A stretch of 64,000 bases of DNA, from NCBI RefSeq assembly GCF_000336955.1, contig NZ_AOLI01000019.1:227997-291996 (forward strand). Reading direction: 5' to 3'. This document shows, piece by piece, positions 26,505 to 29,750 of the stretch. Within the stretch, counting starts at the first letter, position 1. Each line of letters starts with the position of its first letter. Under the pieces are notes generated by a model. The model saw only the letters and a list, made by a program, of their open reading frames with translations, had not been told where the DNA came from and did no database searches. Both the position numbers and the translations under genes were made by a program. This DNA is from Haloferax larsenii JCM 13917 (GTDB taxonomy: Archaea > Halobacteriota > Halobacteria > Halobacteriales > Haloferacaceae).

Positions 26505-27761
26505 CTACCCGGAGACGACGTCCGAAACCACCTCGGGTGCGACGAAGCGCGTCTCGCCGTCCCGCGTTTCGAGTTCGACATCGCCCGTCTCACGGAAGCT
26601 GTTTCCGAGGATGACCTTTCGGGGGATTCCGAGCAAGTCGCTCTCGGCGAATCGCTCGCCGATAGTCTGGTCCTCGTCGTCGAACAGGAGCACCTCGTCG
26701 CGGCCGCACGCGTCGTAGATGCGGTCGGCCGCGTCCGCGAGGTCGCCCTCGTATTCGAGGGGGATAATCGAAACCTCGTAGGGGGCCACGCTTCCGTTAT
26801 CGGTGACGGGCCACCGGAGGCCGCCGTCGTCGCCGTGTTGTTCGACGAGCGTGTGGAGGAGGCGCTCGACGCCGATGCCGTAGCTTCCCATTCGGACGAG
26901 TCGCTTCGAGCCGTCGGCCGTGTCGAGCGTGAGGTCGGCGGGCTCGGAGTATCGCGTCCCGAGTTTGAACACGTGGCCGACTTCGATTCCCTCGCCCGCG
27001 ACGAGCGCCGCACCGCAGTCGGGGCAGGTGTCTCCGTCGGTGAGAGAGGTGCCGGGTGATTCGTCCGTGACGCCGACACGACACCCGTCAGTCCGGCAGT
27101 AGACGAGTTCCTCGGATCCGGTTTCGACGGGGGCGACGAACTCCTCGGAGGTTGAGCCACCCATCACGCTGTTCGACGCGTCGACGACGACGAAGTCGAG
27201 CCCGACCGCGTCGAAGATGCGACAGTAGGCGTCCCGGACGCGAGCGTACCACTCGTCCAGCGACGCTTCGGTCGCGTGGAGGCTGTAGGCGTCTTTCATC
27301 GTGAACTCCTTCGTTCGGAGGAGCCCGTTTCGGGGGTGGTCGTCGCGGTGTTTCCGTTCGACCTGATACAGGAGGAGGGGAACGTCCTCGTAGGACCGAA
27401 CGGTGCCCTCGACGAGGTGGACGATTCCTTCCTCGTGCGAGGGCGCGAGGCACATCGCCTGCCCGTCGCGGTTTTCGAAGGTGAACATCTCACCTTCGAA
27501 ACTCCCCCAGCGACCGCTCTGTCTCCAGACATCGCTGTACTGGAGATTGGGGAGGCTGACGGCCTGTCCACCGATGGCGTCCATCTCAGTTCTGATTCGG
27601 GTGATGAGCTTCTGTCGGACACGCTCGCCCGTGGGTGTGAACCCGAACAGGCCGCTTCCGAACTGTCTGACGAGTCCGGCGCGTACCGCGAGTTCGACAG
27701 CGTCGTTCTCCCAGCCTTCGGTCTCGCGGCTGGTGAACAGGGTCGCGTCGCTACGCCGCAT
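26505..27761 (-). CDS. Bacterial-type prolyl-tRNA synthetase-like protein lacking the editing domain
   Basis: 418 residues; the ATG at 27761 has a GAGGTGA Shine-Dalgarno 5 nt upstream. The order and motifs are those of bacterial ProRS: RAGLVRQFGSGLFGFTPTGERV, motif 2 (YQVERKHRDD...LLRTKEFTMKDAYS, about 132-160), motif 3 MGSYGIGVERLL (about 291-302), and an anticodon-binding domain with FAESDLLGIPRKVILG. Where bacterial ProRS carries an editing insert of about 180 residues, there is a short module with Cys 222, 227, 246 and 249 (YCRTDGC...CPDCG), likely binding zinc. Haloarchaea normally use an archaeal-type ProRS, so this is probably a second or repurposed enzyme. Confidence 0.85.
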   Translation of the reverse strand: MRRSDATLFTSRETEGWENDAVELAVRAGLVRQFGSGLFGFTPTGERVRQKLITRIRTEMDAIGGQAVSLPNLQYSDVWRQSGRWGSFEGEMFTFENRDGQAMCLAPSHEEGIVHLVEGTVRSYEDVPLLLYQVERKHRDDHPRNGLLRTKEFTMKDAYSLHATEASLDEWYARVRDAYCRIFDAVGLDFVVVDASNSVMGGSTSEEFVAPVETGSEELVYCRTDGCRVGVTDESPGTSLTDGDTCPDCGAALVAGEGIEVGHVFKLGTRYSEPADLTLDTADGSKRLVRMGSYGIGVERLLHTLVEQHGDDGGLRWPVTDNGSVAPYEVSIIPLEYEGDLADAADRIYDACGRDEVLLFDDEDQTIGERFAESDLLGIPRKVILGNSFRETGDVELETRDGETRFVAPEVVSDVVSG

Positions 27762-28070: not shown

Positions 28071-28175
28071 ATGATAGTTGTAAAGAATTCCGAACTCGAC
28101 ACCACCGCTCGCCAGACAGCAGTCCGCCGCACGGCCACCTTCTCCGAGATGGCCGAAACGATGCGAAGCATCTGA
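28071..28175 (+). CDS. 34-residue leaderless microprotein
   Basis: An ATG at 28071 stands about 27 nt after a TATA box (TTTATCAA, 28041-28048), the geometry of a leaderless haloarchaeal mRNA. The product begins MIVVKNSELDTTARQTAV and is a basic, amphipathic helix ending in EMAETMRSI. No family recognised. The frame extends upstream without the start, but the promoter spacing fixes this ATG. Confidence 0.5.
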   Translation: MIVVKNSELDTTARQTAVRRTATFSEMAETMRSI

Positions 28176-28221
28176 TTGCGTGAATTTGCGCACTCGTTTT
28201 CGGTCCTTTGACCATTAGTCC

Positions 28222-28284: not shown

Positions 28285-28487
28285 ACCTCACTTGGTACTT
28301 GCTCCGACAATCGCACGTCGGAATTCTAACACATCGTGTCTAGTAACATATGTTCTGTAAGAAATATCAGTTCAATTGATATACCTAAACCGCCGAATTT
28401 CAGGTTCTCACAGCGTACATTTCGGGACAACGGATATACTCTTGGATGTCATATTCAACTAGAACGGGCGACAGCGCCCTGGATACT

Positions 28488-29750
28488 ATGGCAGACAAAC
28501 CACACCAAAACCTGGCCATCATCGGGCACGTCGACCACGGGAAATCGACCCTCGTCGGCCGACTCCTGTTCGAGACAGGCAGTATACCCGAGCACATCAT
28601 CGAGCAGCATCGAGAAGAGGCTGAAGAAAAGGGGAAGTCCGGATTCGAGTTCGCGTACGTGATGGACAACCTCGCCGAAGAGCGCGAGCGCGGCGTCACC
28701 ATCGACATCGCTCACCAGCGGTTCGACACGGACAAGTACTACTTCACCATCGTCGACACGCCCGGACACCGCGACTTCGTCAAGAACATGATTACGGGCG
28801 CGTCGCAGGCGGACCACGCGCTTCTCGTCGTCGCCGCCGACGACGGTGTCGCGCCGCAGACCCGCGAGCACGTCTTCCTCGCCCGGACGCTGGGCATCGA
28901 GACGCTCATCGTCGGGGTCAACAAGATGGACGTCGTCGACTACAGCGAAAACACCTACAAACAGGTCAAAGAGGAGGTTCAGCAACTCCTCCAGCAGGTC
29001 CGGTTCGACTCGGACGACGCCCACTTCATCCCCATCTCCGCGTTCGAGGGGGACAACATATCCGAGCACTCGGAGAACATGTCGTGGTTCGATGGACCGA
29101 CGGTGTTAGAGTCGCTAAACAACCTTCCGGAACCGTCGCCGCCGACCGACGCACCGCTTCGCGTCCCGATTCAGGACGTGTACACGATTTCCGGTATTGG
29201 GACAGTTCCCGTCGGCCGCGTCGAGACGGGAGTGCTCAAAACCGGTGACAACGTTCGGTTCATGCCCTCGGATGCGGGCGGCGAGGTCAAGACCATCGAG
29301 ATGCACCACGAGGAAGTCCCGGAGGCAGGCCCCGGTGACAACGTGGGGTTCAACGTTCGCGGTGTCGGCAAAGACGACATCCGCCGCGGGGACGTCTGTG
29401 GCCCGGCCGAGGACCCGCCGTCGGTCGCCAAGACCTTCCAAGCGCAAATCGTCGTCATGCAGCACCCCTCGGTCATCACCGCCGGGTACACGCCGGTCAT
29501 CCACGCCCACACGGCACAGGTCGCGTGTACGTTCGAATCAATCGACCAGAAGCTCGACCCGGCGTCCGGCGAAGTTGCAGAGGAGAATCCGGACTTCATC
29601 AAGGCTGGCGACGCCGCAATCGTGACGCTCCGGCCGCAGAAGCCACTCAGCATCGAACCGTCGTCAGAAATCGCCGAACTCGGAAGCTTCGCCATCCGCG
29701 ACATGGGCCAAACCATCGCGGCCGGCAAAGTCCTCGAAGTCAACGAGTGA
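28488..29750 (+). CDS. tuf: Translation elongation factor 1-alpha, stand-alone paralogue
   Basis: 420 residues from the ATG at 28488. All GTPase motifs are present: GHVDHGKST (G1), ERERGVTID (G2 region), DTPGH (G3) and NKMD (G4), followed by the beta-barrel domains. It should bind GTP and deliver aminoacyl-tRNA to the ribosome. Two points mark it as a second copy: it lies outside the usual rpsL-rpsG-fusA-tuf-rpsJ cluster, and it has DTPGH where I recall DCPGH in the main haloarchaeal protein. Three direct repeats lie upstream, so regulation may differ. Translational fidelity genes are not adjacent. Confidence 0.93.

Follow-up and report, generated by a model that had tools for sequence, protein, structure and literature searches.

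The tRNA-Pro of bacteria is characterised by a C1:G72 pair and A73. Bacterial prolyl-tRNA synthetase (ProRS) reads G72/A73 through Arg144 of its RPR motif, and P-type and E-type enzymes are described as not cross-charging, the one exception noted being in Toxoplasma (PMC12152171, PMC9976931); deprived of Arg144, E. coli ProRS retains intact activation and is crippled in tRNA charging (PMC12152171). About 22% of bacteria have an E-type ProRS, which charges P-type tRNA-Pro (PMC12152171).

The closest known counterparts of the haloarchaeal enzyme described here are P-type ProRSs that carry the editing insert, INS, such as those of Clostridioides difficile, Collinsella and Streptantibioticus, with which it shares the catalytic core, the anticodon domain and the Cys pairs at the INS borders, but from which it differs by the missing INS, the loss of RPR, a shorter motif 2 loop and a partner tRNA with G1:C72. 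The alphaproteobacterial mini-INS ProRSs (R. palustris 2i4l/2i4n, Sinorhizobium, Paracoccus) likewise have no functional INS and are of similar length, yet they have no Cys knuckles and keep RPR. E-type ProRSs, among them a 488-residue enzyme encoded in the same genome, also do without INS and serve the same tRNA-Pro, but are very distant in sequence and have a zinc-binding C-terminal extension instead. Bacterial E-type enzymes serve the tRNA-Pro of the other domain, and the haloarchaeal P-type, facing an archaeal tRNA-Pro, would be their mirror image. Second synthetases beside a housekeeping one are likewise on record, in haloarchaeal LeuRS2 (as cited in PMC9437257) and in Streptomyces ProRSx. 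We found no published description of a P-type ProRS in archaea in the searchable open-access literature; P-type ProRS, INS loss, second synthetases and E-type ProRS in bacteria are known already, and what is new is their combination together with the displacement of the archaeal enzyme.

Class and descent of the short ProRS

The window, a 64,000-nucleotide stretch of the Haloferax larsenii JCM 13917 genome, holds a real ORF at 26505-27761, where the first-pass annotation had reported a bacterial-type ProRS; the frame is open on the minus strand only, the plus strand of this interval being interrupted by stops. Its features are as follows.

26505..27761, minus: INS-less P-type ProRS coding sequence, 418 aa, stop counted in the coordinates, ATG at 27761 (ORF, Pfam, TIGR00409, homologues)
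27770, minus: in-frame GTG near the ATG at 27761
27429..27443, minus: TXE (proline-pocket) loop, residues 107-111, PSHEE, with Ser at the E. coli Thr109 position (alignment)
27315..27347, minus: motif 2 loop, RDDHPRNGLLR (residues 139-149), with one residue fewer than in bacterial ProRS (alignment)
27336..27338, minus: His142, at the position of E. coli Arg144, the first R of RPR, which reads G72/A73 (alignment)
27081..27098, minus: first Cys knuckle, Cys222 and Cys227, conserved, aligned with the pre-INS CxxC of bacterial ProRS
27027..27071, minus: junction, residues 231-245, the site of the missing INS (alignment with INS-bearing bacterial ProRS)
27015..27026, minus: second Cys knuckle, Cys246 and Cys249 (CPDC), conserved, aligned with the post-INS CPxC of bacterial ProRS
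26862..26891, minus: class II motif 3, residues 291-300, MGSYGIGVER (alignment)
26550..26777, minus: anticodon-binding domain PF03129, residues 329-404 (Pfam)

With 358.9 bits, the protein clears the cut-off of the curated P-type model TIGR00409 (306.7); it stays below the cut-offs of both the archaeal-type/E-type model TIGR00408 (101.6 bits, cut-off 437) and the model of the alphaproteobacterial short ProRS, NF008979 (328.2 bits, cut-off 550). Pfam recognises the class II core and the anticodon-binding domain (PF03129, E 2.1e-8), and the class II and ProRS residues that were checked are largely invariant over the 43 haloarchaeal rows of the alignment. With a structure predicted from 23 homologues (mean pLDDT 82.9, pTM 0.84, the motif 2 loop at 139-155 being of low confidence), a fold search returned bacterial ProRSs first, the short R. 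palustris enzyme 2i4n on top with a TM-score of 0.82, and archaeal ones further down the ranking. Since other short P-types without a full INS are known, the INS-less protein still counts as a P-type ProRS, as a variant.

Homologues of the short enzyme were found in 36 of 392 Halobacteria genomes, spread over 16 of 86 genera, and none outside Halobacteria among 393 genomes from the phylum (E 1e-30). In a tree whose bacterial-type sample comprised only 15 rows, a branch with 100/100 support parts the haloarchaeal short P-type and bacterial ProRSs from the archaeal-type enzymes, and all haloarchaeal members form one clade (99/100) within the bacterial type. This placement on the bacterial side, together with the model scores, bears out the bacterial character and the lateral origin that had been suspected from the sequence. 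By sequence identity, Nitriliruptoria and other actinobacteria come close to the haloarchaeal enzymes, but the tree singles out no bacterial donor at the base. Forcing the alphaproteobacterial short ProRSs and the haloarchaeal ones into one clade was rejected (p-AU 0.037), so the INS losses were probably independent. Within the haloarchaeal clade, the first split sets two genomes of a single genus, G001 and G007, together with a metagenome-assembled locus, L053, apart from the remaining members (98/89). In a quick tree the Haloferacaceae-family genome G042 nests inside the Halobacterium group, which points to exchange among haloarchaea. In Haloferax itself the gene is present in 5 of 15 genomes, and dN/dS values of 0.13-0.20 indicate that these copies are under purifying selection.

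The INS junction and its four cysteines

INS, about 180 residues in bacteria, is absent from the window protein and from the aligned haloarchaeal homologues, which have in its place a short junction with four Cys. Cys222 is kept in 42 of 43 homologues, and Cys227, Cys246 and Cys249 in 43 of 43 each; as the rest of this stretch varies, the conservation of the Cys residues is not due to chance. The first-pass annotation was thus right that the editing insert is gone and that four Cys mark the place. Its description of INS as replaced by a four-Cys module did not hold, as the same pairs already flank an intact INS in bacterial ProRSs: CSGC and CIVC in C. difficile, CDDC and CPHC in Collinsella, CTSC and CPSC in Streptantibioticus, CGAC and CPVC in Subdoligranulum. 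Of the 14 bacterial-type ProRSs sampled, 4 have INS-flanking Cys pairs, to which one divergent orphan can be added; the enzymes of E. coli, Pseudomonas, Bacillus, Nocardia and Nitriliruptoria are without them. The presence of the pairs around an intact INS in bacteria argues that they were inherited and that INS was lost from between them. By alignment, then, the two Cys pairs are an ancient feature of the INS borders in P-type ProRS, and conservation, spacing and homologous position suggest that the four Cys probably form a structural zinc site. The genome of the window also encodes a stand-alone INS-family protein (PF04073), and such a free-standing protein could edit in trans.

Two loci came to light beside these comparisons. 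In C. difficile (NZ_CP149712, L155), P-type and E-type ProRS genes lie side by side, both annotated as proline--tRNA ligase. On a linear plasmid of Streptomyces sp. NBC_00239 (L161), a gene surrounded by glycosyltransferase and MurG-like genes codes for a very divergent ProRS-like protein that has both Cys pairs and may be a synthetase homologue with a role outside translation.

Motif 2, the proline pocket and tRNA-Pro

The RPR motif with its Arg144, a hallmark of the P-type, is missing from the short ProRS of the window. At the Arg144 position, 40 of 43 haloarchaeal members have His and the other 3 have Arg, and Arg is found in 14 of 15 bacterial rows. The residue preceding position 144 is deleted in 43/43 haloarchaeal rows and in 0/15 bacterial ones, and Glu142 has become Asp in all 43 haloarchaeal members. 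The bacterial C1:G72, A73 tRNA-Pro expected as cognate of a P-type ProRS is likewise not what we found: the tRNA-Pro genes of five genomes (G000, G001, G007, G012, G052) have G1:C72 and A73 and are archaeal-type, tRNA-Pro(UGG) and tRNA-Pro(GGG) of G001 and G007 being in this respect like those of the other haloarchaea sampled. The motif 2 changes fit a switch in acceptor-stem reading from C1:G72 to G1:C72, as we infer from the alignment and the tRNA genes.

A second difference lies in the proline pocket. Outside the basal group of G001, G007 and L053, all 40 members have Ser at the Thr109 position, and Thr occupies it in 15/15 bacterial and 3/3 basal rows. As Thr109Ser is fixed in these 40 and found in neither the bacterial nor the basal enzymes, second-copy ProRSs may differ in substrate use from the group in which the enzyme is the sole ProRS; the basal member L053 has an archaeal-type ProRS too, so that Thr109 tracks sole use imperfectly. 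The contrast at this position could be read more strongly, in that the 40 second copies would have changed their amino-acid or tRNA use, for example as partners of an odd tRNA in the manner of Streptomyces ProRSx or as enzymes adapted to a shortage of proline or to its analogues, leaving only the basal group as plain ProRSs. The missing editing domain, the patchy distribution and the ProRSx precedent (PMC9437257) agree with this, but the change from Thr to Ser is conservative and the remaining pocket and motif residues that were checked are kept. Moreover, ProRSx pairs with a tRNA-Pro bearing an Ala anticodon, whereas the 51 tRNA matches of the window's genome, an incomplete list from which tRNA-Pro(GGG) and tRNA-Pro(CGG) were not recovered, include no tRNA-Pro body with a foreign anticodon. 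No tRNA gene lies at the ProRS locus, the only tRNA gene in the window being one for tRNA-Val. We regard a changed use of this kind as unlikely.

Relation to the archaeal-type ProRS

Haloarchaea had been expected to rely on an archaeal-type ProRS, and 388 of the 392 Halobacteria genomes do contain one. The genome of the window is among them: the search for a second proS that the first-pass annotation had suggested turned up the archaeal-type enzyme of 488 aa, so the short P-type is a second ProRS there, and both types occur together in 33 other carriers. The archaeal type is absent from four genomes, namely the P-type carriers G001 and G007 and two others that are just 82-88% complete. Among the 378 near-complete genomes, only G001 and G007 (99% complete each, G007 as a single 2.09 Mb contig) are without an archaeal ProRS, and both carry the short P-type. 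A TIGR00408 search gave nothing above the cut-off in 3/3 genomes of their genus, one of them only 72% complete. Cells need prolyl-tRNA to live, and given that no other ProRS is detectable, the short P-type must be the ProRS of G001 and G007; judged from this absence in one genus, it must serve all proline codons there. Because the two genomes belong to the same genus, they count as one displacement event. TnpB-like transposon genes adjoin the short ProRS gene in G001 (L063, L166) and in G007 (L062, L165).

The surroundings of the gene offer no constant partner. In Haloferax it is flanked by the gcv operon on one side and, on the other, by a second EF-1A gene that is present throughout the genus. 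The site is variable: in other Haloferax the interval from gcvT to EF-1A is either empty, at about 0.65-0.73 kb, or has other contents. The second EF-1A gene (window 28446-29750, plus strand) is 86% identical to the other copy and occurs in 15/15 Haloferax genomes, against 5/15 for this ProRS; we therefore rejected an operon or cassette of the two as a general link. An EF-1A gene also lies just downstream of the P-type ProRS in one metagenome-assembled genome (L044). A 34-codon ORF (MIVVKNSELDTTARQTAVRRTATFSEMAETMRSI; window 28072-28176, plus strand) between ProRS and EF-1A was seen only in the window and in Haloferax elongans. Across 26 loci no neighbour recurs between genera, and no Rfam match indicates an RNA element near the gene. 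Elsewhere in the window's genome there are two genes for bacterial-type threonyl-tRNA synthetases (L002, L004; contigs C6, C12), one of them at a distance of about 15 kb from the gene for the archaeal-type ProRS.

A patchily distributed second synthetase of differing type also resembles the known resistance synthetases, bacteria having a resistant second IleRS, TrpRS or SerRS (PMC9437257), and the short ProRS might by analogy be insensitive to a natural inhibitor of the archaeal/eukaryotic-type enzyme, under an attack of the halofuginone kind. Over 24 haloarchaeal loci, however, its neighbourhood shows no recurring genes for resistance or biosynthesis, and the complete displacement of the archaeal enzyme in one genus would be left unexplained. 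No ProRS inhibitor of this kind is known to us for haloarchaea, and we consider a resistance copy improbable. The suggestion in the first-pass annotation that the protein has ceased to be a tRNA synthetase and loads amino-acid carriers, or is some other aaRS-like enzyme, draws on the lost Arg144, whose loss in E. coli spares activation and cripples tRNA charging (PMC12152171), but it is very improbable, since the anticodon domain PF03129, which known amino acid:carrier ligases have lost (PMC9437257), is retained and conserved, the key class II and proline-pocket residues that were checked are kept, the surroundings show no recurring gene for a carrier protein, and the enzyme is the sole detectable ProRS in G001 and G007.

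The evidence is best explained by a laterally acquired, functional P-type ProRS that has been re-adapted to archaeal tRNA-Pro, an account that we consider likely. Haloarchaea would have gained a bacterial P-type ProRS once, before the sampled members diverged, and INS would have dropped out from between the two Cys knuckles, leaving these at the join as a probable structural zinc site. With the motif 2 loop altered by the change of Arg144 to His and the deletion of one residue, the enzyme would charge G1:C72, A73 tRNA-Pro and not the bacterial C1:G72, A73 form, its aminoacylation activity being predicted from the absence of any other detectable ProRS in G001 and G007. In Haloferax it would act as an accessory second ProRS alongside the archaeal type, and in one genus it would have displaced the latter. 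That the 40-member second-copy clade, with Thr109Ser and no editing in cis, consists of specialised ProRSs, whose charging of tRNA-Pro would be confined to certain conditions or show a changed choice of amino acid, is also rather unlikely; if true, such copies would provide a switchable route of proline decoding or of controlled mistranslation, and the basal group would represent full displacement.

Overall, the haloarchaeal ProRS illustrates how INS may be lost between its bordering Cys knuckles. Furthermore, as the literature describes P-type and E-type enzymes as strictly confined to the tRNA-Pro of their own type, the short P-type lineage would represent a natural solution to a switch of acceptor-stem identity, one that can be tested with a small set of mutants.
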